NCBI GenBank assembly: GCA_029289235.1
Contig: JARFTZ010000046.1
Span: 62,001 to 126,000, forward strand
Source of the DNA: Gammaproteobacteria bacterium
GTDB lineage: Bacteria > Pseudomonadota > Gammaproteobacteria > Burkholderiales > Rhodocyclaceae
Direction of reading: 5' to 3'
DNA length: 64,000 nucleotides
In this document: positions 8,820 to 64,000 of the stretch, in pieces
Layout of the letters: every line of letters begins with the position of its first letter
Numbering within the stretch: position 1 is the stretch's first letter
The notes under the pieces: model-generated
The model's input: the letters and a program-made list of their open reading frames with translations, nothing else
Database searches by the model: none
Told to the model about the DNA's origin: nothing
Program-made: the position numbers and the translations under genes

Positions 8820-9293
8820 GTGTTCGACCGCCTCGAATCGCTGCTACGCGACGAAAATGCGCGCTTCCGGGTCATCCGGCATCCTGCCGAAGGCAATTCC
8901 GAGCGGGTGGCCGCCATCCGCGGGACGCAGGTCGGCCAGGGCGCGAAGGCCATGCTGTGCCGAGCCAAGGATCAACAGGGAGCGCTTATCCTGGCGGTGC
9001 TGCCGGGCGACCGGAAGGTGGATTTCAGGAAAGTGGCACAGGCGGTTGGCAGCAAAAAGGTGTCGCTGGCCTCGCCCGACGAGGCAACCGCGACGACGGG
9101 CTGCGTCATCGGGGCGATCCCGCCGTTTTCGTTCACGCCGGAAATCCGTCTGGTCGTCGATCCGCAACTCCTGGCCCGGCATGACGAGATCGCCTTCAAT
9201 GCCGGCCGGCTCGACACATCGATCGTCCTGAATGCGGCGGACTACGCGCGTATCGCCGCTCCGCTGCTCGCGGACATCAGTGCCGATGGCTGA
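8820..9293 (+). CDS. YbaK/EbsC-family aminoacyl-tRNA deacylase-like protein
   Basis: About 157 residues of the YbaK/ProX editing fold, which hydrolyses misacylated tRNAs such as Cys-tRNA(Pro). The family features are visible: FRVIRHPAEGNSERVAAIRG, QGAKAMLCRA, VDFRKVAQAVGSKKVSLASP and GCVIGAIPPFSF. The GTG at 8820 has GGAGA six bases upstream; the ATG at 8808 has no ribosome site and would add four residues (MENN). The exact substrate of this subgroup cannot be told from sequence. It ends 14 bases before the convergent rlmB. Confidence 0.82.
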   Translation: MFDRLESLLRDENARFRVIRHPAEGNSERVAAIRGTQVGQGAKAMLCRAKDQQGALILAVLPGDRKVDFRKVAQAVGSKKVSLASPDEATATTGCVIGAIPPFSFTPEIRLVVDPQLLARHDEIAFNAGRLDTSIVLNAADYARIAAPLLADISADG

Positions 9294-9307
9294 TTGATCG
9301 CGGATTT

Positions 9308-10045: not shown

Positions 10046-10163
10046 GGCCGGGCTCGATTCGGGCGATTGGGGCGCGTATTTTACCTTGGCGTACTCCACC
10101 GTATGGTCTTGAATGGGACGAAGGAACGATCCCCGGCTCGCGGACTTGAAGAAAGACAACGCC

Positions 10164-13010
10164 ATGAACGCAGACGAACCGACCGTCGCTCCGCATGTGG
10201 AGCCCCCTCTTCGTCAGCCCTCGCCTCCATACCGGTGCGCTGTTGACGACCTGATTTCGCAACTGAACACCGACCGGGCACGCGGATTGAGCGCCGCCGA
10301 AGCGCAGCGGCGGTTGCGCCTGCACGGCCCGAACGAACTACCGGCGCCGCGCCCCGTGCCGGAGTGGATGAAGTTCCTCCGCCAGTTCGCCGACCCGTTG
10401 ATCATCCTGCTGCTGTTTGCGACAGTCATCTCGCTGACCGCCTGGCTGATCGAAGGCGCCCACGGCATTCCGTACGAGACGCTGACCATCGTGGCGATCG
10501 TCATCTTCAACTCCGTGCTTGGTTACCTGCAGGAACGCCACGCCGAAGAAGCCGTGGAGGCGCTCAAGGCTATGGCCGCACCGACGGCCCGCGTCCTGCG
10601 CGACGGCGAGCCGTGCCAGATTCCGGCCCGAGAGGTGGTTCCGGGCGACATCCTGCTGATCGAGGAAGGCGACACGCTGCCGGCCGACGCCCGGGTCATC
10701 GAGTCAATCGTCCTGCGTGTTGCCGAGGCTGCGCTGACCGGCGAGAGTTCGCCGGCGTCGAAGAATCCGGAGGTCATCGCCGCGGAGGCCGGCATCGGCG
10801 ATCAGGAGAACATGGTCTTCAGCGGCACCTCGGTGACCACCGGGCGCGGCTCGGCCGTCGTCGTGGCGACCGGCGCGAACAGCGAGATCGGCCGCATCGC
10901 CGGCAGCCTGCAGACGACGCAGGAAGCCCCCACGCCGCTGCAGAAGGAACTGGACCGGGTCGGCTATTTCCTCGGGCGGCTAGTCATCACGCTGGCCGTG
11001 ATCATGGGCGCAACCCTGCTGTGGCTCAACTGGGGCGAATACTCGCTCGGGCATTTCGTGGCGATCCTGATGTTCTCGGTCGCCCTCGCCGTGGCGGCGG
11101 TGCCGGCCGGGCTGGTGGTGATCAACACGATCACCCTGTCGATGGGCATGGCGCGGATGGCCAGGCGCAACGTGATCGTCCGCCGCCTGAGTTCGGTCGA
11201 GACGCTCGGCTCGACGACGGTGATTTGCTCCGACAAAACCGGGACGCTGACGCGCAACGAGATGACCGTCCGCCGTGTCGTCGTGCCGGACGGGACGGTC
11301 GACGTTTCCGGCATCGGCTATGCACCAGAAGGCAGTTTGTCGCACAACGGCTCGCCACTGAAGCGAGGAGCATTGCAGGCTGCGGTCGAACGCCTGCTCT
11401 ATTCGGCCGAACTCGCCAACAACGCCCGGCTGGTCAAGTCGGGCGAGCGCTGGATGATCCAGGGCGACCCGACCGAAGGGGCGCTGATCGTCGCCGCACG
11501 CAAGGCCGGGATTACCAAGGATTACCTCGACGAGCGCTTCATCCGCATCGGCGAGATGCCGTTCACTTCGGAACGCAAGATGATGAGCACGGCGCACCGC
11601 GACGCGATGAACGAGGAGTTCATCGGCATCACCGCCAAGGGCGCGCCTGACGTGCTGCTGGGATGCTGTACACACGAGCAGGTCGGCGACGAGCCTTGCC
11701 CGCTGACGGAGCAGCGGCGTGGCGAATGGGCAAGGACGATCGACGGGCTGGCCGCCGACGCCTTGCGCCCGCTCGGGGTCGCTTATCGCTTGCTGCCGCA
11801 CGAGTCACTGGAACCCGGTCTGAGCGAACAGCACGAGGAGGAGATGGTGTTTCTCGGCGTCGTCGGGATGATCGACCCGCCGCGTCCGGAGGCTGCCGTG
11901 GCGGTCGAGGCGGCACGCACGGCAGGTGTGCGCACGATCATGATCACCGGTGACCACCAGATCACCGCCGCCGCCATCGCCGCCGAGCTGGGAATCATCG
12001 AAAAAGGGACACGTGCAGTCTCCGGCGCCGAGTTGCAGAAGATGAACGACACCCAGCTGCGCGACGCCGTGCGCAACTGCTCGGTGTATGCGCGCGTCGC
12101 GCCCGAGCACAAGCTGCACATCGTTTCTGCCCTGCAGGACGAAGGCTATATTGCGGCGATGACCGGCGACGGGGTCAACGACGCGCCGGCGCTCAAGAAA
12201 GCCGACATCGGCATCGCCATGGGCATCACCGGCACCGATGTTTCCAAGGGCGCGGCGGACATGGTGCTGACCGACGACAACTTCGCCTCGATCGTCGCCG
12301 CCGTGGAAGAAGGTCGGACGATCTTCGCCAACATCCAGAAATGCCTTCGCTTCCTTCTCTCGTCGAACGCCGGCGAAGTGTTCTTCATGTTCTTCGGCGT
12401 CTTGCTGGCCGGCGTCATCGGCCTGCAGGGGGAGGCCGGCTCGACGATCACCGTGCCGATGCTGGCCGTCCAGATCCTCTGGGTCAACCTGCTGACCGAT
12501 TCCGCGCCGGCCTTGGCCCTGAGCGCCGACCCGGTCGACCACGACGTGATGCGCATTCCGCCACGTGACCCGACGAGCCATGTAATCGACGCGCCGATGT
12601 GGCGCGACATCTATTTCGTCGGCGCGATCATGGGGGTGGGAACGCTGGCGGCAACGGACTGGATCCTGCCTGGCGGCCTGATCCCCGGCGGCACCGGCGA
12701 TGCCTCGCGCGCGCAGACGATGGCGTTCACCACGCTGGTCTTTTTCCAGATCTTCAACGCCTTCAACGCGCGCTCACGCACGCGCAGCGCGTTTGCCGGC
12801 TTGTTCCGTAACACTTGGCTATGGGCGGCCGTTGTCGGCGTTAGCCTGGCGCAGGTCGCCGTTGTGCACGTTCCCTTCCTGCAAACGGCATTTCACACCG
12901 AGGCGCTCACCCCGTGCGAATGGTTGGTCAGCATCGCCGTCAGCAGCAGCGTGTTGTGGGCGGTAGAACTGCGAAAGCTCGCCCACCGCAGCAGACGGAA
13001 AAACGACTAG
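10164..13010 (+). CDS. P-type cation-transporting ATPase (P2, calcium-type) with altered M4 motif
   Basis: A 948-residue membrane pump of the P2 class. In order: N-terminal cation-ATPase domain; actuator loop with [13 protein letters not shown]; phosphorylation site CSDKTGTLT with Asp357; nucleotide domain with KGAPDVLL; hinge [20 protein letters not shown]; then M5 [12 protein letters not shown] and M6 [13 protein letters not shown], which keep the Asn, Glu, Asn, Thr and Asp used by SERCA for calcium. In M4 the usual PEGL reads PAGL, with Ala315 where a cation-binding Glu is expected. Ion specificity is therefore uncertain. The stop shares CTAG with the rnr stop. ATG 10164 was preferred over an in-frame start at 10113. 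Confidence 0.9.
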
Positions 13011-50759: not shown

Positions 50760-51155
50760 CTACCAGCGGAAAACGAATTCCCTCGCCCTTCCCGGCTGCA
50801 CCACGAAATCCTGCTGCTGCATCTGGTCGCCGTAGGTCACGGAAATCCGGTAATTGCCTTCCGGCAATTTCGCCAGCAGGTACGGCCCGGCGCTTTCGAC
50901 CTCGAGCACTTTCGTGCCGTTTGACTCGCTGACTACGACGCGAACGCCGGCCACATACGTCCCTGCCTTCTCGGCCAGCAGAACGCGCACGTTGAACCCG
51001 CTTCGGGCGGCATTTATTTCAGCCAGTTCATCCTCGCCAATGCCCCCGGTGACATAGATGATGCCCTTGTAATCTTGCCATGCGAGTACAGCCTCATCTG
51101 CCAGCGGCGACGAACAGAGAAGTGCCAGGCAAATGGCCGCGACCCTACGATGCAT
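50760..51155 (-). CDS. Exported protein with carboxypeptidase-regulatory-like beta fold
   Basis: A 131-residue exported protein with signal peptide MHRRVAAICLALLCSSPLA. The mature part (YKGIIYVTGGIGEDELAEIN, VRVVVSESNGTKVLEVESAG, LPEGNYRISVTYGDQMQQQD) has the strand pattern and the LPxGxYxIxVxY loop of small Ig-like carboxypeptidase-regulatory domains. ATG 51155 has AGGA six bases upstream. It follows hoxU by 23 bases on the same strand, so it may be co-transcribed with the hydrogenase, but hydrogenases of this type are cytoplasmic and the link may be accidental. Confidence 0.68.
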   Translation of the reverse strand: MHRRVAAICLALLCSSPLADEAVLAWQDYKGIIYVTGGIGEDELAEINAARSGFNVRVLLAEKAGTYVAGVRVVVSESNGTKVLEVESAGPYLLAKLPEGNYRISVTYGDQMQQQDFVVQPGRAREFVFRW

Positions 51156-51178
51156 GATGCGTCCTTTCATCCTCCAAT

Positions 51179-51889
51179 TCACCGCCCACTGTAGCGCATC
51201 GACTTCAGGTAGGTGAACACGTTTTCGCGCGGCACCATCTCGCCGACCGCGCAGCCTTTTTCGCTGAGTGCGCCGGTCGGGCAGACGTGCACGCACTTGC
51301 TGCACGAGGTGCACGACGGTGATTCGCCCCACGGCTGGTGCAGGTCGGTGACCATCACCGAGTTGATGCCGCGTCCCATGACGTTCCACGTCCTAGCCCC
51401 CTCCACTTCCTCGCACGCCCGCATGCAGCGGGTGCACAGCACACAGCGGTTCGGGTCGTAGTTGAAGCGCACGTGCGACGCATCGACCTTCAGGCGCGGA
51501 TAACGATACGGATAGCGCGTGTGATGCACACCCAGTCGCTGCGCCAGCGCCTGCAGTTCGCAATGCCCGTTCGAAACGCAGGCCGCGCAAATGTGGTTTC
51601 GCTCGGCCAACAGCAGTTCGACGATCATCTTGCGGTACTTGCCTACCTTCGGCGAATCGACGGTGACGTCCATTCCCTCGACGATCGTCGTCGCGCAGGC
51701 TGGCAGCAGGCGCGGCACACCCCGAACCTCGACCATGCAGAGGCGGCAGGCACCGACGTTCGAGAGTCCCTTGAAGCTGCAAAGAGTCGGAATGAAGATG
51801 TCGTTGGTCCGTGCCACGTCGAGGATCGTGCTGCCCTCGTCGGCCTTGATCTCCGTGCCGGCAATCTTCAGCGTGATGATTTTCGGCAT
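51179..51889 (-). CDS. hoxU: Bidirectional hydrogenase diaphorase subunit HoxU
   Basis: A 236-residue electron-transfer subunit related to the N-terminal part of NuoG. A plant-type [2Fe-2S] domain comes first (CSFKGLSNVGACRLCMVEV, then ACATTI). A His/Cys [4Fe-4S] site follows (HICAACVSNGHCELQ). Two ferredoxin-like [4Fe-4S] motifs are CVLCTRCMRACEE and CTSCSKCVHVCPTGAL. It passes electrons between HoxF and the HoxY cluster. GAGG precedes the ATG, four bases after hoxF. Last subunit gene of the operon. Confidence 0.93.
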   Translation of the reverse strand: MPKIITLKIAGTEIKADEGSTILDVARTNDIFIPTLCSFKGLSNVGACRLCMVEVRGVPRLLPACATTIVEGMDVTVDSPKVGKYRKMIVELLLAERNHICAACVSNGHCELQALAQRLGVHHTRYPYRYPRLKVDASHVRFNYDPNRCVLCTRCMRACEEVEGARTWNVMGRGINSVMVTDLHQPWGESPSCTSCSKCVHVCPTGALSEKGCAVGEMVPRENVFTYLKSMRYSGR

Positions 51890-51893: not shown

Positions 51894-54800
51894 TCACTCC
51901 TTCGCCGAACAGGTTTCGCGAACGTCGCAGCGCAGGCAGCGGCCGCTTTCCGCGGCGGCCTGGGCTTGCGTCAGGCCGCGCATGACCTCCGCGAAATTGG
52001 CGCGGCGCTGCGCTGCGGGCATTTCTTCGGAAACGTTGCGTGCGCCGCCCTCCGGCTCGGGCGGAACGGCCTGAGCCACATCAAACGTGCCGAGCAAGGC
52101 CGGCAGGCGGTCCTGCCCGGTCAGGATGTGGTCGATCGCCCGCGCGGCGGCCTTGCCCGTTGCCATCGTCGAGGAGACATTCGAGGCTCCGGTTACAAGG
52201 TCGCCGCCGGCGAAAACCCGCGGCCGATTGGTTTCGTACGTCACCCAGTCGGCCGCCGCCGTGTCGTTCTCGCGCACATGGATGCCGAAGCGGCGCAGCG
52301 GCTCGGCGTCCGGCCGCTCGCCGATGGCCAGGATGATGTTATCGCACGGCACGACGATCTTCTCGCTGGTCGACATCGGCCGCCGCCGCCCGTCGAGCGT
52401 GTAGTCGCCGAGCTTGGTGCGCATCAGCTCGATGCCGGTGACGCGGCCGCGCTTGTCGGTGACCACCCGCTGCGGCGCGACGAGGAATTGCAGCCTGACG
52501 CCTTCGGCTTCGGCGTCAGTGACTTCCTCGGCGATCGCCGGCATCTCCTGCCGCTCGCGGCGATAGGCGATGGTCACTTCACAGCCGAGGCGCAGCGCGG
52601 TGCGCGCCGAATCGACCGCCGCGTTGCCACCGCCGATGACAACGACCTTCTGGCCGATCTGCGTCGGCTCGCCGCGCGCCACCTGTTCGAGAAAGTGGAT
52701 CGCGTGCCAGACGCTCGGCGATTCCTCGCCGGTGATCCCGGCTCTCGCCGCCTTCCACGTGCCGGTGGCGAGAAACACCGCGTCGTTCTCGGCTTCGAGC
52801 ACATCGAGCGACACGCCGGCGCCGAGCTTCTGGCCGAAGCGGAAGGTCACGCCGAGACCGGCGATGATTTCCAGTTCTTTGCTCAGCATGTCCTTGGGCA
52901 AGCGGTACTGCGGCAGCGAGTAGCGCAGCATGCCGCCGGCTTCCTCGCGCGCCTCGTGGATCGTCACGTCGTGACCGAGCAGCGCCAGATAGAATCCCGC
53001 CGCCAGCCCGGAAGGACCGGCGCCGACGATGGCGATCTTCTTCCCGGTCGCCGCCATGCGCCGACCGGCGAGCCGCGTCCGCACTTCATCGAGCAGCGGC
53101 CCGCCGAAAACCTGGTCGGAGATGAAGCGATGCACTTCGCGCATATTGAGCGGTGCATCCACCGTCTTGCGCCGGCACTGGCTCTCGCACGGATGCTGGC
53201 AGATGCGCCCGGTCGAGCCGGGCAGCGGATTGTCGAGCCAGATCATCTCGGCGGCATCGGCGATGCGCCCCTCCTTCGTCAGTTCCAGGAATTGCGGGAT
53301 GCGCATGTGCAGCGGGCACGAGTTCTCGCACGGCGAGAGGAACAGGTCCTCGCAGACGCCGGCCCGGCAGCGGCGGGCGCGCAGATGCTCCTCGTACTCG
53401 TGGCGGAAGTAGCGCAGCGTGGTCAGCACCGGGTTCGGCGCCGTCTGGCCGAGACCGCACAGCGACATCTCCTTGATCATCTGGCCGAGTTCCTCGAGAT
53501 CCTGGATATCGGATTCCTCTGCCTGCCCGCCGGTGATCTTCTTGAGAATGCGCAGCGCCTGGTCGAGCCCGGCGCGGCAGGGAATGCACTTGCCGCAGGA
53601 CTCGGAATGCGTGAATTCGACGAAGTAGCGGGCGACGTCGACCATGCAGTTGTCTTCGTCCATCACCACCATGCCGCCCGAACCCATGATCGCGCCGATC
53701 TGCGCCAATGACTCGTAGTCGATCGTCACGTCGAAGTTGTCAGCCGGAATGCAACCGCCCGACGGCCCGCCCGACTGCAGCGCCTTTACGCGCTTGCCGC
53801 CCGGGCTACCCTGGCCAATGTCGTAGATGACGTTCTTCAGCGGCGTGCCCAGCGGCAGTTCGACGAGACCGGTGTTCCTGATCTTGCCGACCAGCGAAAA
53901 AACCTTGGTGCCAGTACTTTGCGCCGTGCCGATCTCGCTGAACCAGGCGCCGCCGCGTGCGACGATGACCGGGACGTTGCACCAGGTCTCGACGTTGTTG
54001 ATGTTTGTCGGTTTGCCCCACAACCCTTTCTGCGCCGGGAACGGCGGACGCGGGCGCGGACGTCCGGCGCGGCCTTCGAGCGATTCGATCATCGCGGTTT
54101 CCTCGCCGCAAACGAAGGCGCCGGCGCCTTCGACCAGCTTGATGTCGAAGCAAAAGCTGGTGCCCAGCACGTTGTCGCCAATCAGCCCGAATTCACGCGC
54201 CTCGGCGACGGCGCGCTTCAGGCGCTGCACGGCCAGCGGATACTCGGCGCGCAGGTAGACGATTCCCTCGCTCGCCCCCGTGGCGAAAGCGCCGATCAGC
54301 ATGCCCTCGATGAGCATGTGCGGGTCGCTCTCGATCTCGTTGCGGTTCATGTACGCGCCGGGGTCGCCCTCGTCGGCGTTGCAGATGATGTACTTCTGGT
54401 CGGCCACGGTCTTGCTCAGCAGGTCCCATTTCACCCCGGTCGGGTAGCCCGCGCCGCCGCGTCCGCGCAGCTTCGACTTCTTCACTTCCTCGATGATCTC
54501 GGTGACGTTCGGCTTCTGCGTCGCCTGATAGAAGGCGTGGTAGCCGCCGACGGCGATGTACTCCTCGATGTCTTCGGGATTGATCAACCCGCAATTGCGC
54601 AGGACGATCTTCTTCTGTCCCTTGAAGAACGGGATTTCGTTCCAGTGCGGCAACTCGGGAAGGCCGCGCCCGTACATCACGTGGCCGGTCAGGTGGTCCC
54701 ACTCCTCGATCTTGCAGATGGCCTTTTCTAGCGGCGGCTGGCGCAAGGCGATGGCCTGGACGATGGCGGCGGCATCGTCGGGCTTGACCTCGCCGAGTAC

Positions 54801-55055
54801 GGCAAGCGGCAAGCCGGGGATATGCACATTGACCAGCGGCTCGGCGGCGCAGAAGCCGAAGCAGCCGACCGGCGTCAGTTGCGCATCCACCCCTTGCCTT
54901 TCAAGTTCCCGCTCCAACGCCTGGAACACCTCGCGCGCCCCGTTGCCCATGCCGCACGTCCCCATGCCGACGCCGATGCGCGGCTTGCCCGGCAGGAGCT
55001 TCATCAACCCCGTGCGACGGATGTCGTGCAGGCCGTCGAGATCGTGGATTCTCAT
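51894..55055 (-). CDS. HoxF/NuoF-like NADH module fused to GltD/NfnB-like NADPH module
   Basis: A 1053-residue fusion. Residues 1-110: thioredoxin-like [2Fe-2S] domain with only three of four Cys seen (C34, C65, C69). Residues 145-550: NuoF domain with FMN/NADH loops (RGRGGAGYPTGVKW at 197-210, CNADEGDPGAYMNR) and the [4Fe-4S] site SCGKCIPC plus SLCGLG. Residues 565-1053: complete GltD-type flavoprotein with N-terminal Fe-S Cys (CENSC, RICQHPCESQC), FAD motif IAIVGAGPSGLAAGF and second Rossmann motif VVVIGGGNAAVDSARTA followed by YRRERQEMP, the NADPH type. It overlaps hoxE by ATGA. No stop or frameshift at the junction. Ordinary HoxF is about half this length. Confidence 0.92.
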   Translation of the reverse strand: MRIHDLDGLHDIRRTGLMKLLPGKPRIGVGMGTCGMGNGAREVFQALERELERQGVDAQLTPVGCFGFCAAEPLVNVHIPGLPLAVLGEVKPDDAAAIVQAIALRQPPLEKAICKIEEWDHLTGHVMYGRGLPELPHWNEIPFFKGQKKIVLRNCGLINPEDIEEYIAVGGYHAFYQATQKPNVTEIIEEVKKSKLRGRGGAGYPTGVKWDLLSKTVADQKYIICNADEGDPGAYMNRNEIESDPHMLIEGMLIGAFATGASEGIVYLRAEYPLAVQRLKRAVAEAREFGLIGDNVLGTSFCFDIKLVEGAGAFVCGEETAMIESLEGRAGRPRPRPPFPAQKGLWGKPTNINNVETWCNVPVIVARGGAWFSEIGTAQSTGTKVFSLVGKIRNTGLVELPLGTPLKNVIYDIGQGSPGGKRVKALQSGGPSGGCIPADNFDVTIDYESLAQIGAIMGSGGMVVMDEDNCMVDVARYFVEFTHSESCGKCIPCRAGLDQALRILKKITGGQAEESDIQDLEELGQMIKEMSLCGLGQTAPNPVLTTLRYFRHEYEEHLRARRCRAGVCEDLFLSPCENSCPLHMRIPQFLELTKEGRIADAAEMIWLDNPLPGSTGRICQHPCESQCRRKTVDAPLNMREVHRFISDQVFGGPLLDEVRTRLAGRRMAATGKKIAIVGAGPSGLAAGFYLALLGHDVTIHEAREEAGGMLRYSLPQYRLPKDMLSKELEIIAGLGVTFRFGQKLGAGVSLDVLEAENDAVFLATGTWKAARAGITGEESPSVWHAIHFLEQVARGEPTQIGQKVVVIGGGNAAVDSARTALRLGCEVTIAYRRERQEMPAIAEEVTDAEAEGVRLQFLVAPQRVVTDKRGRVTGIELMRTKLGDYTLDGRRRPMSTSEKIVVPCDNIILAIGERPDAEPLRRFGIHVRENDTAAADWVTYETNRPRVFAGGDLVTGASNVSSTMATGKAAARAIDHILTGQDRLPALLGTFDVAQAVPPEPEGGARNVSEEMPAAQRRANFAEVMRGLTQAQAAAESGRCLRCDVRETCSAKE

Positions 55056-55573
55056 GATGCGGTCCCTTTATCAATGGCCGATACGAGCTTCTTCAGCTTG
55101 AAGTCGCTGACGTGCCCGTAGATCTCGTGGTCGATCGCCGCGACCGGCGCCAGCGCGCACTGGCCGAAGCAGGCGACGGTGCGAATGGTCATCCCGAAAT
55201 CGGGGGTGGTGAAGGACGTTGCGCTTCCGGCTTCGTCATCCTCGTGGAAGCCGGCACTGGCCTTCAGCGCATCGAGCAATTGCTTCGAGCCGCGCGTGTG
55301 GCAGGCGGTGCCCCGGCAGACGGTCACGGTGTGCCGTCCCTGCGGCGCGAGGTTGAAGAACGAATAGAAGGTGGCGACGCTGAGCACCTGCGAGCGCGAC
55401 ACGCCCATGCGGCACGCCACGTAATCGAGGGTCTCGCGCGGCAGGTACTTCAACGGATGCGCCTGCTGGATTTCCTCCAGCACGCTCAGCACGTCGCCCG
55501 TCTTGTCCGGGTGCCGGGCAATGATGTCGTTGATGATCTCGTTCGGGAGAGGCGTGTTGTCAGGCGCAAGCAT
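55052..55573 (-). CDS. hoxE: Bidirectional hydrogenase diaphorase subunit HoxE
   Basis: A 173-residue NuoE-like subunit. The four [2Fe-2S] cysteines are in VCRGTACHTRGS and VACFGQCALAPVAAI. The N-terminal helical part has LPRETLDYVACRMGVSRSQV and SVATFYSFFNLAP. It docks on HoxF beside the FMN. ATG 55573 has AGGGA upstream; a longer frame would enter the palindromic repeat. The upstream neighbour is the maturation protease gene, with an inverted repeat between them. Confidence 0.93.
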   Translation of the reverse strand: MLAPDNTPLPNEIINDIIARHPDKTGDVLSVLEEIQQAHPLKYLPRETLDYVACRMGVSRSQVLSVATFYSFFNLAPQGRHTVTVCRGTACHTRGSKQLLDALKASAGFHEDDEAGSATSFTTPDFGMTIRTVACFGQCALAPVAAIDHEIYGHVSDFKLKKLVSAIDKGTAS

Positions 55574-55625
55574 TTTCGGTCCCTTTTCCCTTTCCTTCTC
55601 ATCCTTCGAAAGCCCCTGGCTCTTT

Positions 55626-55703
55626 GTCACCCCGGCGAAGACGGGAGTCCAGTTCATTCCGCTTCCGCGCGCTTTTCTGGATTCCGGCCTTCGCCGGAAT
55701 GAC
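55626..55703. repeat. Palindromic REP-like element
   Basis: Two 27-base arms at 55626-55652 and 55677-55703 are imperfect inverted copies around a 24-base spacer. Each arm has the GTCA(T/C)(T/C)CCGGCGAAG core and a GGA(A/G)TCCAG end that are familiar from dispersed palindromes in many proteobacteria. It sits between hoxE and the protease gene and supplies the last codons of the latter. Confidence 0.8.
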
Positions 55704-56205
55704 GGCCCCGGGGCAATTTGCCTTTCTTTCGCAGCCCGCTGAAAAACGCGCTTCCCTCAATCAACCCCACGGCTTCATCGATCCAGTGCGACGTCGCGGA
55801 TGACGTCGTCTCGCCGACGTCGAAGCTGAACGCCGGGATGCCGACCACCCAGGCTTCCGGTGCCGTGCCGAACAGATAGCGGGACAGACGAAGGAGGCTG
55901 GCCGGGTCGCAATGATGGGCAAGTGCCGACTCGTGCGCTTCGCCATCCTCGCGAACCCGTTCTACGCGCAGCGAAGCGCCGTCCTTTTCCGCCGGGTAGG
56001 CATCGAGGAACACCACGCGGTCAGCCATAGCGACGTCAGCGGCCAACTCTAGCGTGAGCTGCCGCACGACAATGGTGCGGTGTTCCGGGTGATGCTCGGC
56101 AAGCAGTCCGGCCGCCCGCACTCCGGCCGCGTCGTCGCTGCGCAGATCGTTGCCGTAACCGATGACCAGGGTCATCGGCAGCACCGTGGATAGTCGCTGG
56201 CCCAT
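55654..56205 (-). CDS. hoxW: Hydrogenase maturation protease (HoxW type)
   Basis: A 183-residue endopeptidase of the HycI/HyaD family that removes the C-terminal peptide of HoxH after nickel insertion. LVIGYGNDLRSDDAAGVRAA carries the first metal-binding acidic residue; VVFLDAYPAEKDG the second; and the His region is ALAHHCDPASLLRLSRYLFG. The last 16 or so residues (RHSGEGRNPEKRAEAE) are encoded by the palindromic repeat and are unlike the family. ATG 56205 is two bases after the hoxH stop; ATG 56175 is an alternative. Confidence 0.9.
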   Translation of the reverse strand: MGQRLSTVLPMTLVIGYGNDLRSDDAAGVRAAGLLAEHHPEHRTIVVRQLTLELAADVAMADRVVFLDAYPAEKDGASLRVERVREDGEAHESALAHHCDPASLLRLSRYLFGTAPEAWVVGIPAFSFDVGETTSSATSHWIDEAVGLIEGSAFFSGLRKKGKLPRGRHSGEGRNPEKRAEAE

Positions 56206-56207: not shown

Positions 56208-57635
56208 TCAGCCCCGTTCGCAGGTGTCAATCAACGCACCAGATGCATCAAACAGCTCGATGCGCAGCGGCATCTCGCCGAGCGCGTGCGTCGAACAGCT
56301 CAGGCACGGGTCGTAGCAGCGGATCACCGCCTCGACGCGGTTGAGCGCGCCCTCGGCGAGTTGCTTGCCGTCGACAAAACGCTTTGCGACCTGAGTGATG
56401 CCCTGATTCATTGCGAGGTTGTTGTGCCCGGTGGCGATGATCAGGTTGGCCCAGATGATCAGGCCGTCGGCATCGATGCGGTAATTGTGGATCAGCGTGC
56501 CGCGCGGCGCCTCGGAGATGCCGACACCTTCCCGCCTGTTCGGTCCGGCGGTCGCGCGCACATCCCGGCTCAGGATTTCCGGCGACGCCAGCAGTTCGGC
56601 AACACGCTCCAGCGCATAGACGATTTCGACGAGCCGCGCATAATGGAAGTGGAACGAGCTGAGCACCGCTCCCTCGGGCTGCAAGGCGCGGAAGTCCGCG
56701 AGCTCCTGCTCAGCCAGCGGCGTCCCCATGCGCTCGCAGACGTTGAGGCGCGCCAGCGGCCCGACGCGGTACAGGCCCGCGGGGTAGCCGACCGGTTTGA
56801 AATACGGCGATTTCAGGTAGCTGTCCGGCTCGACCGCCTCGCCGATGTACGTCGCGTAGTCCCTGGCCTCGATCTTGTCGACAACAATCTTCCGTTGCGC
56901 ATCGACGACACGCAGATGGCCGTCGTAGTGCTCGATCGCTCCGTCCGGACCGACGAGCCCGAGGAACATGCTCGGGAAGTTGGCGAAGCTGTCGATCTCG
57001 GCCTGGAAGTTGCCGATGACCGGCTTGAACCAGTCGAGCGTCTTGCGTGCAATAGCCAGTGCCTGCGGCAGTTCGGCCAGAATTTGGTCACGCACCGCCT
57101 CGCTCAGCGGGCTGGCGACGCCGCCCGGGACGATCCACGCCGGGTGGATGCGCTTGCTGCTCAGGCGTTCGATCATCTGTTGGCCGAACTTGCGCAGCCA
57201 GATGCCGTCCCTCGCCAGCTCCGGAAACTTTGCCGCCACACCGAGGATGTGCCGGTTCGCCGGATCGGAATCCATGCCCAGCAGCAGGTCCGGCGAACTG
57301 AGGTGGAAAAAGCTCAGGGCGTGCGACTGGATCAATTGCCCGAAGTTGATGACCCGGCGCAGCATCGCCGCTGCCGCGGGAATCGCGACCGCCATCAGGT
57401 CGTCGCACGCCTTGGCCGAAGCCAGCAGGTGGCTGATCGGGCAAATGCCGCAGGTGCGGGCAGTCAGCGACGGCATCTCCTGATAGGGACGTCCCTCGGT
57501 AAACTTCTCGAAACCGCGGAACTGGGTGATGTGCAGGCGGGCAACGTCGACCTGGCCATCATCGTCCAGTTTGATGGTGATCTTCGAGTGCCCTTCGATG
57601 CGCGTGACGGGATCGATGGTGATGGTCTGGGTCAT
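56208..57635 (-). CDS. hoxH: [NiFe]-hydrogenase large subunit HoxH
   Basis: A 475-residue catalytic subunit binding the Ni-Fe(CN)2CO site. L1 motif RTCGICPISH has C62 and C65; L2 motif DPCLSCSTH has C444 and C447. Beyond His450 there are 25 residues, the peptide expected to be cut off by the protease next door. The N terminus (ITIDPVTRIEGHSKITIKLD, FRGFEKFTEGRP) resembles the HoxH of cyanobacteria, placing it in group 3d. GGAGG precedes ATG 57635. No signal: it is cytoplasmic. Confidence 0.95.
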   Translation of the reverse strand: MTQTITIDPVTRIEGHSKITIKLDDDGQVDVARLHITQFRGFEKFTEGRPYQEMPSLTARTCGICPISHLLASAKACDDLMAVAIPAAAAMLRRVINFGQLIQSHALSFFHLSSPDLLLGMDSDPANRHILGVAAKFPELARDGIWLRKFGQQMIERLSSKRIHPAWIVPGGVASPLSEAVRDQILAELPQALAIARKTLDWFKPVIGNFQAEIDSFANFPSMFLGLVGPDGAIEHYDGHLRVVDAQRKIVVDKIEARDYATYIGEAVEPDSYLKSPYFKPVGYPAGLYRVGPLARLNVCERMGTPLAEQELADFRALQPEGAVLSSFHFHYARLVEIVYALERVAELLASPEILSRDVRATAGPNRREGVGISEAPRGTLIHNYRIDADGLIIWANLIIATGHNNLAMNQGITQVAKRFVDGKQLAEGALNRVEAVIRCYDPCLSCSTHALGEMPLRIELFDASGALIDTCERG

Positions 57636-57648
57636 GGGACCTCCGGAT

Positions 57649-58179
57649 TCAGCCAAAGCGTGCGCGGGGTTCCAGTTCCGGCATGCGCCCTTCGAGCAGT
57701 GCCGCAACCGCGCTGAAGATGATCTCCGCGTGCGGCGGGCAACCCGGAACGAAGATGTCGACCTTGACATGCTCGTGGACCGGCTTCGACTTCGGCAACA
57801 GGGGTGGAATCACCTCGTTCGGGATACCTTGGTTCGCCGAGGCGTTCTCTACGTAGGCCCGGCGCAGCAGTTCGTCGCGCTTGAAGTAGTTGCGCATGCC
57901 GGGCACGTTGCTGGTCACCGCACAGTCGCCAAGCGCCATCAGCAGCTTGGTGCGTGAACGGACCAGCTTGATCTTGTGCAGGTCGTCCTCGCTGCTGACC
58001 GCCCCTTCGACGATCGTCAGATCGACGTTCTCCGGAAACTCCTTGGCATCGACGAGCGGGCTGTAGACGAGATCGATCCTGTCGGCCACGGCGAGCAGTC
58101 GTTCGTCCATGTCGAGAAACGACATGTGGCACCCCGAGCAGCCGTCCAGCCAGACGGTGGCAATGCGTATCTTGCTCAT
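57649..58179 (-). CDS. hoxY: [NiFe]-hydrogenase small subunit HoxY
   Basis: A 176-residue short small subunit with one proximal [4Fe-4S] cluster. Ligand regions are VWLDGCSGCHMSFLDMDERL (C14, C17), LMALGDCAV and VPGCPPHAEI. The C-terminal cluster domain and Tat signal of uptake hydrogenases are absent, as in soluble group 3 enzymes. GGGGAGGGG precedes ATG 58179. It lies 13 bases before hoxH. The 125 bases upstream, after hypE, contain no gene and could hold a promoter. Confidence 0.94.
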   Translation of the reverse strand: MSKIRIATVWLDGCSGCHMSFLDMDERLLAVADRIDLVYSPLVDAKEFPENVDLTIVEGAVSSEDDLHKIKLVRSRTKLLMALGDCAVTSNVPGMRNYFKRDELLRRAYVENASANQGIPNEVIPPLLPKSKPVHEHVKVDIFVPGCPPHAEIIFSAVAALLEGRMPELEPRARFG

Positions 58180-58304
58180 GCTCCCCTCCCCGTGCTTCTC
58201 TCGGCCTGGCGGCTCTTCGCCTATCTCGTTGTTTTCACGGCCGGCCGCAGTTCGCAATCCATCTCCAGCATAGGAAAACGCACTACCAAATACAAAGCCC
58301 GAAA

Positions 58305-59327
58305 TCAGCAGATGCGCGGCAACGGCTCGCCCGAAAGCCAGTCGAGGATGCGCCGCCCGCCCAGCCGGGTGGTCATCTGCACGAAACCGTGCCGATCCTC
58401 GACGACCTCGCCGATGATCGCCGCCTTTTTCCCGAGCGGCTGCGCTCGCATCGCGGCCAGCAAGCGATCGGCGTCCTGCGGCGCGCAGAGGGCAACGAGC
58501 TTGCCCTCGTTGGCGATGTAGAACGGATCGAGGCCGAGAAACTCGCAGGCGGCCACCACCACCGGCTCGACCGGCACAGCCGCCTCCTCGATCCGCATGC
58601 CGACGCCGGATTGCTTCGCCAGTTCGTTGAGCGTCGTCGCCAGGCCGCCGCGCGTGGGATCACGCAGCGCGCGCAGTTCCGCGCCCGTGTCCAGCATCGC
58701 CTCGACCAGCCCGTTGAGCGGGGCGGAATCGGAGACGATCGGCGAGTCGAAATTCAGCCCCTCGCGCCGCGAGAGGATCGCCATGCCGTGCTCGCCTATG
58801 GAGCCGGAGAGCAACACGACGTCACCCGGCCCGGCGCGGTTGCCGGACAGTTCGAGCCCCTCGCGAAGCACGCCGACGCCGGTGGTGGTAATGAACACCC
58901 CGTCGCCCTTGCCCTTCTCCACCACCTTGGTGTCGCCGGTGACGATCAGCACGCCGGCGTCGGCCGCCGCACGCGCCATCGATTCGACGATGCGCAGCAG
59001 GTCGGCCAGCGGCAAACCTTCCTCCAGGATGAACGCCGCCGAGAGGTAGAGCGGCTTCGCGCCCATCACCGCCACGTCGTTGACCGTGCCATGCACCGCC
59101 AGGCTGCCGATATCGCCGCCAGGAAAAAACAGCGGCGAGACGACATGGCTGTCGGTCGACATCACCAGCCGGCCCGACGGCGGCGGCAGCACGGCGCCGT
59201 CGTCGCCCTGCGCCAGATACGCGTTTCCGAGCGCCTTGGCGAACAACCCCTCGATCAGGTTTGCCATGGCGCGACCACCGCTGCCGTGAGCCATTTCGAC
59301 GCGTCCGTGAAGCAGATCGAGCTTCAT
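58305..59327 (-). CDS. hypE: Hydrogenase maturation factor HypE
   Basis: A 340-residue PurM-like ATPase that dehydrates the thiocarbamate on its own C-terminal Cys to thiocyanate, the source of the cyanide ligands. The sequence ends PRIC, the conserved tail with the active Cys. AHGSGGRAMANLI, GTVNDVAVMGAKPLYLS, TGDTKVVEKGKGDGVF and RDPTRGGLATTLNELA are signatures. ATG 59327 overlaps the hypD stop (ATGA). Confidence 0.95.
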   Translation of the reverse strand: MKLDLLHGRVEMAHGSGGRAMANLIEGLFAKALGNAYLAQGDDGAVLPPPSGRLVMSTDSHVVSPLFFPGGDIGSLAVHGTVNDVAVMGAKPLYLSAAFILEEGLPLADLLRIVESMARAAADAGVLIVTGDTKVVEKGKGDGVFITTTGVGVLREGLELSGNRAGPGDVVLLSGSIGEHGMAILSRREGLNFDSPIVSDSAPLNGLVEAMLDTGAELRALRDPTRGGLATTLNELAKQSGVGMRIEEAAVPVEPVVVAACEFLGLDPFYIANEGKLVALCAPQDADRLLAAMRAQPLGKKAAIIGEVVEDRHGFVQMTTRLGGRRILDWLSGEPLPRIC

Positions 59328-60463
59328 CGCTCGCCTCCCTGGGAAGCGTGTCGCGCCACGTCCTTGAAGCGCCCGTATTGATAGTGCGCCGCACAGGCGC
59401 CTTCCGCCGACACCATGCAGGAACCCACCGGCCGTTCCGGCGTGCATGCCGTGCCGAAGATCCGGCACTCCTGCGGCCGCTTCTCGCCGCGCAGGATCGC
59501 GCCGCATTCACAGGCCTTGTTGTCCGGAACCGGCACGTAGCCGAGACCGAATCGCGCCTCCGCGTCGAAGGCGGCATACTCCGGACGCACTTTCAGCGCG
59601 CTGTGCGGCAGCGTGCCGAGACCGCGCCACTCGAAAGCGTCGCGCAACGCGAACACCTCGTTCATCAGCGCCTGCGCCTTGCGGTTCCCCTCCGGCGTCA
59701 CAGCCCGGGTGAATTCGTTTTCCACTTCCGCACGGCCGGCGTTGATCTGGCGCACCAGCATCAGGATCGCCTGCAGTACGTCCAACGGCTCGAAGCCGGC
59801 GATGACCACTGGCTTGCCGTAAACGTTGGCGAACGGCTCGTACGGACGGCTGCCGATCACCGTCGACACATGCGCCGGGCCGACGAAGCCGTCGAGTTGC
59901 ACACCTGCCGGGTTGTCCAGGATCGCCCGCATGGCCGCCGGCGTCAGCACGTGGTTGCAGAGCACGAAGAAATTCGCAAGCCCCAGCGCTTCGGCCTGCC
60001 GGATCGCGACCGCCGTCGGCGGCGTTGTCGTCTCGAAACCGATGGCGAGAAACGCCACTTGCTTATCGGGATTCTGCCGCGCCAGTTCGAGCGCGTCGGT
60101 AATCGCGTAAACCATGCGTACGTCGGCCCCCTGCGCCCTGGCCTTCTGCAACGAAAGACCGTGCGACGCCGGTACGCGCAGGCAGTCGCCATAACTGCAG
60201 AGCGTCACCTCGTGTTCCAGCGCCAACCGGATCGCCTGGTCGATGCGACCGACCGGCAGCACGCAGACCGGGCAGCCCGGCCCGTGGATCATCCTGACCC
60301 GCGGCGGCAGCAGGTCGGCCAGGCCATAGCGCGAAATGGCATGGGTGTGGCCGCCGCAGAACTCCATCAGGTGGTAGCGCCGCCCGTCCCGCACTTCACC
60401 GGCGATGGCCTCCGCCAGACCACGGGCCAGTTTGCCGTTGCGGAATTCCTCGATGTACTTCAT
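59324..60463 (-). CDS. hypD: Hydrogenase maturation factor HypD
   Basis: A 379-residue Fe-S scaffold where, with HypC, the Fe(CN)2CO unit is built. FCGGHTHAI carries the active Cys; [21 protein letters not shown] and [10 protein letters not shown] are the other motifs. The C-terminal cluster cysteines are in [20 protein letters not shown] and [13 protein letters not shown]. It overlaps hypC and hypE by four bases each. Confidence 0.95.
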
Positions 60464-60699
60464 CCCGACATTCCTGCCGCCTGCCCCATCCCCATTTCCG
60501 CGAAAAGCGCCAGCGTGCGCTCGGCCTCCTCGACATCGAGTTTTTGCAGGGCGAACCCGACATGCACGATGACGTAGTCGCCAACTGCCACGTCATCGAC
60601 AAGCGCCAGCGATACTGCCTTTCTCACGCCGCCAAGGTCGACGATGGCGTTCCCGTCGTCCTGAAGTTGTTCAACGCGCGCCGGAATAGCTAAGCACAT
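60460..60699 (-). CDS. hypC: Hydrogenase maturation chaperone HypC
   Basis: A 79-residue chaperone starting [12 protein letters not shown]. The Cys after the initiator Met (processed to the N terminus) binds the iron complex and later the large subunit. [20 protein letters not shown] is the conserved OB-fold end. It overlaps hypF by ten bases and hypD by four. Confidence 0.95.
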
Positions 60700-61799
60700 A
60701 ACGCCAGCTTCTGAAGATGCCGCGCACCGACCCAGGCCTGCCCAAGCGACAAACCGGCGTCCCCCGGGGAAAGGCGTTGTGCCGTCAGTACCTCGATCCG
60801 GTCCTGTTGCAGCAATTCCGACAACCTGCGCACGAGCAAGCGATTCTGGAAACAGCCGCCACCGCAGGCGACCCGACGTATCCCGTTCTGCTCCACGGCA
60901 TCACGTACCCAGGCGGCCAGCCCCTCCGCTACGGTCGCATGGAACAGCGCCGCACCGTAGCCAGCCTCCATTCCATCAGCCAGCGCGGCAAGGAGCGGGC
61001 GAAAATCCAGCGAGCGTGCGATTTCATACCCCCCGGTCAGCGCAGCCGTCTCGCCGTGCCGCTCTGCCAGTTTTTCCAGCGCCATTGCCGCTTCCCCCTC
61101 GAACGATTGTTGCGGACAGAGGCCAAGCAGCCCTGCCGCCGCGTCGAAGAGGCGGCCAAGACTGCTGGTCGACGGGCAATTTACGTCACGTTCAAGCATC
61201 GTCGCGATGGTTGCGGCCCCGGGCCGGTCAGCAAAACGTTCAACGATCTGATCCTGGCGCCCAATGCCAGCCAGCGCCGACGCCCCCATCCGCCAGGCTT
61301 CGCGCGCGGCGCGGTCGCCGCCGGGCAAACGCAGAGAAAACAGGTGACCAAGACGCTGAAAGTCAGCACCGTCACATCGCAGCAACTCGCCGCCCCAGGC
61401 CTGGCCGTCGCTACCCAGCCCGACGCCATCCATCGCCAGCCCCAGCACCCGCTCGATCACGCCATGCTCGGCGCACACCGCCGCCACATGCGCATGATGG
61501 TGCTGCACGGGCAGTGCGGGAATCCCCTGTCGTTCGGCAAGTTGCACCGCCAGGCGGGTACTGAAGAAATCCGGATGCAGGTCATGCACGACCAACGCCG
61601 GACGAATCGAACGTTCCGCGCAAAGCTGGTCGGCCGCCCGTTCCAGCGCATTGCACGCATCCGCATCGACGAGATCGCCGATCGTTTTGGAAACCAAGGC
61701 TGTCCGCCCGTGCATGGCACAAACGGAAGCCTTCAACCAGCCGCCAACCGCCAGCACCGACGGGGTGTCGAACGGCAGAGTGAAGGAAAGAAACGTCAT
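60690..61799 (-). CDS. hypF: Short HypF, Kae1-like domain only
   Basis: A 369-residue protein that matches only the C-terminal half of HypF. Motifs of the Kae1-like carbamoyltransferase domain are present: [16 protein letters not shown] (iron-binding histidines), [36 protein letters not shown] and [12 protein letters not shown]. The acylphosphatase, zinc-finger and YrdC domains of full HypF (about 750 residues) are absent and are not encoded next to it. As I recall, Ralstonia eutropha HypF1 is similarly short. It should complete carbamoyl transfer to HypE but may need another source of carbamoyl adenylate. Confidence 0.9.
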
Positions 61800-62689
61800 T
61801 CAGCCAGCGACGCCCGCAGCGACAGAAGTTGTGTTTCCAGTTCCGCGACGCGCTTCTTCAACGCGGTTACGCTTTCCTCCCGTCGGGAGACCGCAGAGGC
61901 CAGCTCACCGTGAAGCCAGTCGAGCCAGGCGTCCATTCCCTCGCCGGTTTCGGCCGAAACCTGCAGGACCGCGATGTCCGGATTGACGCGACGCGCATTG
62001 GCGATCACCTGCGCCACGTCGAAACGCAGATGGGGCAAGAGATCGCATTTATTGAGCAGCATCAGGCGCGCGGCACGGAACATGTCCGGATACTTGAGCG
62101 GCTTGTCCTCGCCCTCGGTCACCGAAAGGATGACGACCTTGGCAGCCTCCCCAAGATCGAACCCCGCCGGGCAGACAAGATTGCCGACATTCTCGATGAA
62201 CAGCAGCGAGGCGGGCGCCGGCGCCAGTTCATCCAGCGCCTGCTGCACGCGCAGGGCGTCAAGGTGGCAGCCCTTGCCGGTGTTGATCTGCTCCGCCCGC
62301 GCTCCGGTTTCCCGGATGCGCTCGGCGTCGAGGCTGGTCTGCTGATCGCCTTCGATCACCGCCAGCGGCACGCTGCCCTGTAACGCGGCGATAGTCCGCA
62401 CCAGGAGGGACGTCTTGCCGGAACCCGGGCTCGATACGAGATTCAGCGCCAGCACGCCATCCTGTTCGAAACGCAGCCTGTTCGCCGCGGCGAACGCATC
62501 GTTCTTCGCCAGGATGTCGCGTTCGACCTGCACCTGGCGCAGCACTATCGACTCTCCACCTCCGGGGTCATGAGTGTGTGAGTGGGAGTGTGTGTGAGGA
62601 TGAGCATGACGATAACGCAGACCGTTCGGCCCGAGATGCTCATGAGGAACACCAGCAGCTTCATCGCCACAACCACAGGTTGAACACAT
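61796..62689 (-). CDS. hypB: Hydrogenase nickel-incorporation GTPase HypB
   Basis: A 297-residue GTPase for nickel insertion. The N terminus has the high-affinity CSTCGCG motif and a His-rich stretch ([14 protein letters not shown]) for nickel storage. G1 is [30 protein letters not shown] and LLNKCDLLP follow. The C-terminal 35 residues ([20 protein letters not shown]...) look like an added coiled-coil tail not needed for the family fold. It is three bases after hypA. Confidence 0.95.
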
Positions 62690-62692: not shown

Positions 62693-63034
62693 TCACTCCA
62701 CCTCCAGCGCTTTCAGTCTCAACTCCCGGCCGCTCCGGAGTTCCACATCACGACCGCCACACGCCGGGCAGTCATCGAAGACCTCAGAAAGAACCACGGT
62801 CCGGCGGCATTCCCGGCACCACCCCGTTCCAGGAATCCCGATGATCTCCAGAGCAGCCTCCGCTGCAATCGTCTCGCGCGCGACGACATCAAAACAGAAG
62901 CGCATTGCCTCCGCCTCGACTGCGGCAAACGCACCTATTTCGAGGACGACTTTCCGTACACGATGAAATCCCTCCGCCTCTGCCGTCTCCTCGATGAGGC
63001 CGAGCACATGCTCGGCCAGCGACAGTTCGTGCAT
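62693..63034 (-). CDS. hypA: Hydrogenase nickel-incorporation protein HypA
   Basis: A 113-residue nickel carrier. MHELSLAEHVLGLIEETA contains the His2 nickel site; the zinc site is formed by WCRECRR and DCPACGGRDVE. It works with HypB to load nickel into HoxH. First gene of the hyp-hox run, 15 bases after the dodecin gene on the same strand. Confidence 0.95.
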   Translation of the reverse strand: MHELSLAEHVLGLIEETAEAEGFHRVRKVVLEIGAFAAVEAEAMRFCFDVVARETIAAEAALEIIGIPGTGWCRECRRTVVLSEVFDDCPACGGRDVELRSGRELRLKALEVE

Positions 63035-63641: not shown

Positions 63642-64000
63642 TTATGAGAGACGAGGTACTCCAAGTCGATCAAAGTAGGCAATGGTCAGTACCGTTTTCA
63701 GTAGCCGATCAGCGTTTCGCCAGTAGCTACGCGCATTTCCAGCCACCCTACACGCCACAACTTCCGGCGCACCGAGGGCTTTCAATTCCCGATACATTGT
63801 CGTGCCGCGCTTCCAGTGCTTGAGTTGGATCGCCCGCAACCGATGTCGCATCCACTCGTCCAGCGTTCGCCAGACTTTCGGCGTTTGCGATAACCGGAAA
63901 TAGGCTTTCCAGCCCAATACATAGGGGCGCAGCTTTTCGACAACTTCCGCCATACTGCGACCGCCTGAGCGCCGGGTCAGTTGCCTGATCCGCTGCCTGT
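63642..64000 (-). CDS. ltrA: Group II intron reverse transcriptase/maturase, C-terminal part
   Basis: The frame is open to the window edge, so only the last 119 or so residues are seen. The maturase (GIIM) domain is clear: VVEKLRPYVLGWKAYFRLSQ, then LDEWMRHRLRAIQLKHWKRG and YWRNADRLLKTVLTIAYFDR with LGVP near the end. The reverse-transcriptase domain lies outside. No endonuclease domain follows the maturase domain, as in group IIC-type proteins. Confidence 0.9.
   Translation of the reverse strand, partial: RQRIRQLTRRSGGRSMAEVVEKLRPYVLGWKAYFRLSQTPKVWRTLDEWMRHRLRAIQLKHWKRGTTMYRELKALGAPEVVACRVAGNARSYWRNADRLLKTVLTIAYFDRLGVPRLS

Follow-up and report, generated by a model that had tools for sequence, protein, structure and literature searches.

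A putative NAD(P)-linked [NiFe] hydrogenase of a Rhodocyclaceae bacterium with a GltD-type module in the ferredoxin-exit position of its HydB/BfuB-like subunit

The window analysed here, a stretch of 64,000 nucleotides (positions 62,001 to 126,000 of contig JARFTZ010000046.1, assembly GCA_029289235.1), derives from a Rhodocyclaceae genome of 3.81 Mb in 63 contigs with 95.1% completeness. It carries a co-directional run of genes in the order hypA, hypB, hypF (C-terminal part), hypC, hypD, hypE, small subunit, large subunit, protease, E, F-GltD and U. Our subject is the F-GltD gene, hereafter the fusion, which joins a HydB/BfuB-like half to a GltD/NfnB-like half in a single uninterrupted open reading frame (ORF) of 1053 amino acids (aa), exactly 51894-55055 on the minus strand; plus-strand ORFs overlapping it there were treated as shadows. 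Pfam places Complex1_51K at residues 191-362, NADH_4Fe-4S at 473-557, Fer4_20 at 557-649 and Pyr_redox_2 at 673-960, and the protein contains SCGKCIPC, two Rossmann motifs and YRRERQEMP. ORF, Pfam and motifs agree with an earlier note, made from the DNA letters, which had described an uninterrupted 1053-residue frame with NuoF-type and GltD-type motifs; the strand is minus. The features of the gene, with flavin mononucleotide and flavin adenine dinucleotide abbreviated as FMN and FAD, and nicotinamide adenine dinucleotide and its phosphate as NAD and NADP, are as follows.

51894..55055, minus strand: F-GltD fusion, HydB/BfuB-like N half and GltD/NfnB-like C half, 1053 aa (ORF, Pfam, PDB alignment, AlphaFold2, Foldseek)
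54747..54980, minus strand: thioredoxin-like N-terminal domain of BfuB type, residues 26-103, with C34, C65 and C69 as incomplete [2Fe-2S] ligands (StnB/HydB alignment)
53970..54485, minus strand: FMN/NAD(H) domain Complex1_51K, residues 191-362, with GDPGAYM and GAGAFVCGEE (Pfam, residue counts)
53385..53639, minus strand: helical bundle, residues 473-557, with B1 [4Fe-4S] ligands C487, C490, C493 and C533 (Pfam, residue counts)
53352..53369, minus strand: CRAGVC, residues 563-568, which abuts the fusion point and supplies the final ligands of B2 (Zn or [2Fe-2S]), a site that also has C470 and H557 (alignment)
53106..53342, minus strand: GltD N-terminal [4Fe-4S] domain, residues 572-650, with C576, C580, C619, C623 and C627, and H642 as likely non-Cys ligand (Pfam, alignment)
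52176..53039, minus strand: FAD and NADP(H) Rossmann domains, residues 673-960 (Pfam, alignment)
51927..51941, minus strand: RCLRC tail, residues 1039-1043, the counterpart of RCLQC at the N-terminus of NfnB (alignment)

At least 589 relatives of the fusion were confirmed, of which the best 80 were kept, so that the counts below are biased towards close relatives. The fused architecture was found in 37 of the 80 and the unfused in 43, and six further fused loci came from sampling of the genus and order. Setting aside L085 (the window itself) and L088 (whose length and identities match L005) leaves 41 fused loci, or 42 rows with the window. Of the 41, five are incomplete, either because they meet contig ends (L006, L019 and L064) or because the frame is lost in the GltD half (L030 and L089). 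Residues were compared across these 42 fused, 43 unfused HydB-like and nine NuoF-type rows.

An immediate concern is that the fusion might be a sequencing or assembly artefact, or that its GltD half has decayed. A same-genus copy (L115, G018:C64:860-3968) is indeed interrupted, its frame breaking between residues 778 and 799, and the lost frame of L030 lies within its GltD half. Both ideas are nevertheless opposed by the 41 further fused rows with intact ligands, 36 of them uncut by contig end or frame break, by low ratios of nonsynonymous to synonymous substitution (dN/dS) in both halves and by a confident predicted fold. Compared with L086, L087 and L005, dN/dS was 0.06, 0.17 and 0.15 for the F half and 0.12, 0.20 and 0.19 for the GltD half, with synonymous sites near saturation against L086 (dS 1.17 and 1.00). 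The AlphaFold2 model, built from a 34-row alignment, has a mean predicted local distance difference test (pLDDT) score of 88.6 and a predicted template modelling (pTM) score of 0.81, with the FMN/NAD loop (residues 230-241) below 50. We therefore regard artefact or decay as extremely improbable. Of the objections foreseen in the earlier note, sequencing error as the origin of the fusion is refuted for the family by the further rows and dN/dS, and loss of FAD or NADPH residues was not seen, Gly678/680/683, Arg718 and Arg832/Arg833 being kept in alignment; a decayed GltD half in the window is likewise rejected on its kept ligands and low dN/dS.

On sequence grounds, the front half is classed as a HydB/BfuB-type bifurcation subunit and not as an ordinary HoxF. 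Against solved beta subunits, residues 26-573 score 659 bits with 7t2r_B, 648 with 9n5u_B, 630 with 9bov_B and 611 with 8oh5_B; complex I NuoF scores about 370 bits. The best solved match is thus a bifurcating [NiFe] HydB, and this, together with the motif residues, led us to reject the identity of ordinary HoxF and to correct the initial label HoxF to HydB/BfuB-like. Residues reported as diagnostic of bifurcating beta subunits comprise A/E-x-M, Phe and GGPSG (PMC7311640) and the AFM motif (PMC8880783). The window carries A234, M236, F314 and GGPSG (residues 429-433), as do nearly all fused rows (Phe314 and GGPSG 42/42, Met236 41 and Ala234 40 of the 41 non-gap rows); the middle residue at position 235 is Tyr in 30 of 41 and Phe in 11, giving AYM in the window. 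NuoF-type rows have Tyr at Phe314, Lys or Ser at Met236 and a gap at Cys568, each in 9/9. The B1 Cys are kept in all 42 fused rows, as are the junction ligands Cys470, His557, Cys563 and Cys568. The window's full B2 ligand set reads C470/T508/H557/C563/C568, and whether the B2 metal is Zn or [2Fe-2S] is disputed between PMC8880783 and PMC9499530. The FMN, SLBB and NADH_4Fe-4S domains that belong to a BfuB by the family definition of PMC9304861 are all found, SLBB at 19.8 bits, under its cut-off of 27.

Immediately past the junction site, HydB and StnB continue into a domain with two [4Fe-4S] clusters, assigned to ferredoxin reduction (PMC8880783; PMC10482914). Homology of the fusion to HydB stops at residue 572-573, and Fer4_20 and Pyr_redox then follow (PDB alignment, Pfam); the C-terminal ferredoxin domain IPR017896 (clusters B3/B4) is not present in the fusion by HydB alignment and Pfam. 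The GltD module thus stands in the slot of the HydB ferredoxin-exit domain; it is of the Stn kind, in a predicted circuit position opposite to that in Stn. A third state is seen in three acidobacterial [NiFe] EFUYH clusters (L110, L111 and L113), whose F proteins end 10, 15 and 16 residues past the junction motif and so have no ferredoxin domain and no GltD. These are about 49-50% identical to the window's F and so are not recent trimmed copies; the F of L112 is interrupted at an ambiguous base, and its match too ends at residue 568. Related cores thus carry three exit arrangements, namely a ferredoxin domain (HydB), GltD (the window) or none (acidobacterial F), and the exit slot would be swappable, since a ferredoxin domain, GltD or 10-16 residues all occur after the junction.

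The back half has the sequence hallmarks of an intact GltD/NfnB-type FAD-NADP(H) module. It begins at Cys576, eight residues past Cys568, and its five Cys (C576, C580, C619, C623, C627) are found in 42/42 fused rows. Gly678/680/683 are kept in all 41 non-gap rows, the NADP-site Arg832/Arg833 in 40/40 (a third, Arg835, varies, with 31 Arg) and the C-terminal RCLRC Cys in 38/38. Foldseek matched this half to 9bov_A, 8oh5_C and 5jca_L (NfnL; TMt 0.83, root-mean-square deviation 1.7). The position of StnC K170, which is Glu in NfnB (PMC10482914), is occupied by His in 34 and Lys in eight of the 42 rows. This proximal ligand is His in the window (H642) and in all 16 other [NiFe] rows, and [FeFe] rows are divided (His 5, Lys 6); the His rows coincide with the main fused clade of the F-half tree described below.

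Zheng & Huang 2024 (PMC11406978) proposed, for an [FeFe] version, that bifurcation also takes place at the FAD, making it a second such centre of the NfnAB kind. Here, Arg718, equivalent to NfnB R201 and StnC R239, is kept in 41/41 rows, which speaks for this proposal; the same Arg is, however, present in StnC, whose FAD was judged non-bifurcating (PMC10482914), and the proximal ligand is His as against Glu in NfnB. The neighbouring genes that were read include no NfnA (PyrK-like) partner, no genome-wide search for one having been made, and this too counts against a bifurcating FAD, which we consider very unlikely.

The remaining genes of the run are listed below.

51179..51889, minus strand: HoxU/BfuA-type subunit, 236 aa, with Cys ligands for A1-A4 (PRK07569 355 bits, cut-off 333)
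55052..55657, minus strand: HoxE/HydC-type subunit, C1 [2Fe-2S] ligands C114, C119, C163 and C167; true start probably further in (Pfam, alignment)
55654..56205, minus strand: hydrogenase maturation protease (TIGR00072 63 bits, cut-off 47)
56208..57770, minus strand: [NiFe] large subunit HoxH/HydL; the ORF begins about 45 codons ahead of the likely start, MTQTIT near 57635 (Pfam, alignment)
57649..58257, minus strand: [NiFe] small subunit HoxY/HydS, with four Cys as cluster ligands; the ORF begins about 26 codons too early (Pfam, alignment)
58305..59507, minus strand: hypE, ORF start early (profile matches)
59324..60463, minus strand: hypD (profile matches)
60460..60699, minus strand: hypC (Pfam)
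60690..61799, minus strand: hypF, C-terminal part only, profile positions 390-738 of 741 (profile match)
61796..62689, minus strand: hypB (profile match)
62693..63034, minus strand: hypA (Pfam)

The catalytic subunits appear complete in their ligands: HoxH has both NiFe Cys pairs (C107/C110 and C489/C492) and HoxY its cluster Cys C40/C43/C112/C173. The ligands of the BfuC C1 [2Fe-2S] and BfuA A1-A2 clusters are present in E and U, and in the relatives' alignments the HoxE cluster Cys are kept in 38/38 and the HoxU A1-A2 Cys in 39/39. The hypF of the cluster comprises only the C-terminal part, and two zf-HYPF motifs lie on another contig of the same genome (G000:C62). Directly upstream of hypA is a dodecin (PF07311; 63050-63487, minus strand), a kind of protein that binds flavin, and a group II intron maturase domain (GIIM; 63642-63998, minus strand) reaches the window edge beside the cluster. 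Downstream of U, an ORF (50760-51389, minus strand) with a likely internal start would encode a short protein with a signal-like N-terminus; its match to CarboxypepD_reg is weak (25 bits, below cut-off).

A genome search revealed no second [NiFe] large subunit, both matches lying in the window's HoxH, and no 16S rRNA gene; it did reveal one PntB and two RnfC-type proteins. NADPH has a possible sink in a RuBisCO of the PRK13475 kind (883 bits against a cut-off of 489). The window's contig also encodes a 601-aa [FeFe] hydrogenase with HydE, HydG and P0016, a 671-aa GltD protein (L114, G000:C46:366000-384000; 2227-11404, minus strand). This is the arrangement of HydDB group A2 and a second GltD-linked hydrogenase within one genome.

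Several known systems invite comparison. A PDB sequence search with HoxU, F, E and H returned as nearest solved chains A, B, C and D, respectively, of the Acetomicrobium mobile HydABCSL (7t2r), and HoxH scored 533 bits with HydL, 429 with HoxH and 382 with MvhA. This NiFe-HydABCSL (NiFe-Bfu, Type 3) has the same five subunit kinds, and its FMN-core motifs, B1, junction ligands and C1 are kept in the window. It differs in carrying the C-terminal ferredoxin domain (B3/B4) where the window has GltD, in AFM as against AYM, and in a subunit of 692 aa corresponding to the window's HoxU, which has 236 aa and no A5 domain. The NAD-coupled [NiFe] hydrogenases HoxEFUYH of group 3d share the subunit set, and the window's HoxU passes the HoxU model; its F, in contrast, has bifurcation-type motifs and GltD, and its HoxE scores 107 bits against a HoxE model cut-off of 224.

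The Sporomusa-type StnABC, or Nfn-Bfu (8oh5, 9bov, 9n5u), combines a BfuBC core with a GltD-type NADP(H) module judged non-bifurcating, to which the window's GltD half aligns along its length. In Stn, however, it is the NuoG-like subunit, at mid potential on the entry side, that carries GltD as a fusion, and StnB keeps its ferredoxin exit domain, whereas in the window GltD is on F in the exit slot and the 236-aa HoxU is separate; the FAD-proximal ligand is Lys in Stn (StnC K170) and His (H642) in the window. A further comparison is with the [FeFe] group A3 sub-type I BfuABC(D) of Hydrogenedentota (PMC11406978), in which B3/B4 of BfuB are reportedly replaced by DPD_II and FAD/NAD(P) domains, as in the window; its BfuA carries the H-cluster, where the window has [NiFe] YH and a short 236-aa HoxU. 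That paper proposes FAD bifurcation, and its text has no word starting 'NADP'. The [FeFe]-type fused copies found here (10/37) probably belong to this kind, to judge by the paper's description. Lastly, PRK12771-type GltD proteins beside [FeFe] hydrogenases (HydDB group A2, glutamate synthase-linked) join a B1-type helical bundle to GltD, and differ from the window's fusion in lacking the thioredoxin-like domain, the FMN domain and the junction motif and in having Lys as proximal ligand; P0016 scores 395 bits on PRK12771, below the cut-off of 516.

The partners of the fused proteins are varied. Among the 37 fused loci of the best 80, 13 have [NiFe] Y and H nearby on the same strand. Ten are accompanied by a HoxU-like protein of 572-624 aa that shows two or more of the three H-cluster patterns (that of L021 was confirmed as an [FeFe] hydrogenase by Pfam), and a 903-905-aa HoxU-like stretch, with molybdopterin domains, accompanies two. 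F(GltD)-U occurs without nearby Y/H in nine loci, eight of them with E, although L030 begins at the edge of its contig and the sequence of L011 reaches only 4.5 kb past F; three loci at contig ends were undecided. The genomes of eight of these nine loci contain a strong HoxH match (G043 has none), and four of the HoxH clusters, when fetched, were all E-F-U-Y-H, separate from the fusion locus and with their own E, F and U. These HoxH matches weaken the 'orphan' E-F(GltD)-U loci as proof that the module works as a transhydrogenase by itself.

Within the sampled genus, a [NiFe]-type fusion with an adjoining HoxH end was found in 4/23 other genomes, one copy being broken, and one genome has a 47%-identical [FeFe]-type fusion. 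Among the matches listed, 16 genomes from other families of the order gave no full-length match, and in an even draw from the class, one of 369 genomes, the window's own, passed an E-value of 1e-200. The same-operon relative L005, with an 80% identical fusion, is labelled 'Proteobacteria bacterium CTSoil_124' and is apparently the same sequence as the same-genus L088. A tree of the F half comprised 68 rows (40/42 fused, 19/43 HydB and 9 NuoF; L036 and L064 were left out). The window falls with 33 other fused rows in a single group (support 100/100), inside which 29 [NiFe], E-F-U-only and undecided rows cluster (100/98). The remaining six fused rows, four of them [FeFe] and two molybdopterin, carry Lys and are placed among HydB by a weakly supported fork (93/53), so that the fusion may have had several origins or have been lost in places. 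Outside the genus, the nearest row comes from a Kiritimatiellae metagenome-assembled genome; since Acidobacteriota make up most of the larger group, this suggests transfer of the fusion between phyla. One record at ≥80% coverage was obtained from each of the plasmid and phage collections, both in two pieces; in the plasmid record (H1, L108), F and GltD are separate matches and HoxU matches flank GltD on both sides, as in Stn. A Stn arrangement was also observed in L061 (8007-11476), where an unfused HydB is followed by an ORF with a HoxU-like start and GltD.

How would such an enzyme work? E, F, U, Y and H would assemble as one complex, and the intact sites indicate that both nucleotides, NAD(H) and NADP(H), are probably substrates. 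The suggestion in the earlier note that H2 is coupled to both pools is hence the best reading of two modules whose sequences appear intact. Whether the two are coupled by bifurcation, for which the kept BfuB signatures speak, is an even call. Our preferred interpretation, to which we give a probability of roughly 45%, is a cytoplasmic [NiFe] hydrogenase built like A. mobile HydABCSL, with the exit domain replaced by GltD, that bifurcates with NADP+ in place of ferredoxin. H would be the site of catalysis, Y and U an Fe-S wire, and F with E the FMN/NAD(H) core with its gate. Electrons from H2 would pass through Y, U and B1 to FMN, which would transfer hydride to NAD+; a second branch would lead through the [2Fe-2S] (C1) of E, the conserved junction site, the GltD [4Fe-4S] pair and FAD to NADP+. 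The net reaction would be 2 H2 + NAD+ + NADP+ -> NADH + NADPH + 2 H+, reversibly, with NADP+ as low-potential acceptor instead of ferredoxin. With E' values of -280 mV for NAD, -380 mV for NADP and -414 mV for H2 (PMC9304861, Table 1), we compute that NADP+ reduction needs more than 0.071 bar H2 alone and 0.0015 bar if coupled to that of NAD+. In its most general form, in which one FMN splits H2 electrons between NAD+ (high-potential) and NADP+ (low-potential, via GltD FAD and a His-ligated [4Fe-4S]) and the E-F(GltD)-U module is shared by [NiFe], [FeFe] or molybdopterin units, the proposal of ferredoxin-free bifurcation is more tentative.

Several observations weigh against bifurcation with NADP+. 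B3/B4, absent in the fusion, are held necessary for bifurcation in HydABC (PMC9499530, PMC11406978). The junction motif is kept in the three F proteins without an exit domain, so that its conservation is no proof of use, and single junction ligands are shared, as aligned, by NuoF-type rows (Cys470 5/9, His557 4/9, Cys563 4/9; Cys568 0/9). AYM stands in place of AFM, and the N-terminal [2Fe-2S] (B5) site of the window has three Cys only (C34, C65, C69); in StnB, two of the four B5 Cys are replaced by Gly (PMC7483475). The top Foldseek chain is the StnB-type 9bov_B (TMt 0.94), with 7t2r_B at rank 20. Finally, P0016 lacks the junction motif yet joins its B1 bundle straight to GltD, and GltD could hence be wired from B1, without bifurcation.

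This last point leads to a hydrogenase of dual cofactor use without bifurcation, in which GltD is a second, independent outlet that draws its electrons from B1 or from the FMN core, NAD+ or NADP+ is reduced separately, and plain NADH/NADPH transhydrogenation also occurs. P0016, beside its [FeFe] hydrogenase and with no FMN domain or junction motif, is a precedent for such wiring; in Syntrophomonas wolfei Hyd1, loss of B3/B4 accompanies loss of bifurcation (as told in PMC11406978), and with PntB in the genome, extra transhydrogenation would not be odd. On the other hand, Bfu signature residues are kept in the fused rows at the junction, at B1 and at the FMN site, and if NADH and NADPH were short-circuited without coupling, the difference in potential between their pools would be lost. 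We hold this explanation to be possible, and nearly as likely as the bifurcating one.

Ferredoxin might alternatively still be a partner, docking at HoxU or HoxE, with NADP(H) as an extra input or output of a four-way enzyme (H2, NAD, NADP and ferredoxin). HoxU retains the Cys of both [4Fe-4S] ferredoxin-like clusters, and a reaction with ferredoxin is reported for the HoxEFU of Synechocystis (PMC7363133, PMC11647496). The domain to which ferredoxin binding is assigned in HydB/StnB (PMC8880783, PMC10482914) is, however, replaced by GltD in the fused rows, and a four-way enzyme is unlikely. The bifurcation suggested in the earlier note has thus become more concrete through the HydB/BfuB-like F half, while its addition of ferredoxin to NAD+ and NADP+ is less likely than NADP(H) in ferredoxin's place, because GltD sits where the ferredoxin-exit domain should be.

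The earlier note's idea of an undescribed system needs correction, since the architecture is not new as such. The same replacement has already been reported for [FeFe] BfuB sub-type I (PMC11406978), while among the matches listed from the open-licence literature (subscription papers and preprints being outside this scope) we found no [NiFe] form, no NADP(H) as third partner or in the ferredoxin slot, and no His ligand. A census of Bfu enzymes (PMC9304861) chose BfuB by a domain set that included the ferredoxin domain, and would thus probably have missed the GltD-fused architecture.

Natural versions with a ferredoxin domain, with GltD and with neither may offer a clean test of the role of B3/B4 in bifurcation. 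Should bifurcation with NADP+ be confirmed, the exit arm of Bfu enzymes would be a swappable module in which NADP+ is able to replace ferredoxin, and H2 would drive NADPH formation at about 47-fold lower pressure (0.0015 versus 0.071 bar). A H2-linked supply of NADPH for CO2 fixation is plausible in this organism, and CO2-fixing bacteria would have one enzyme to furnish both NADH for respiration and NADPH for biosynthesis.

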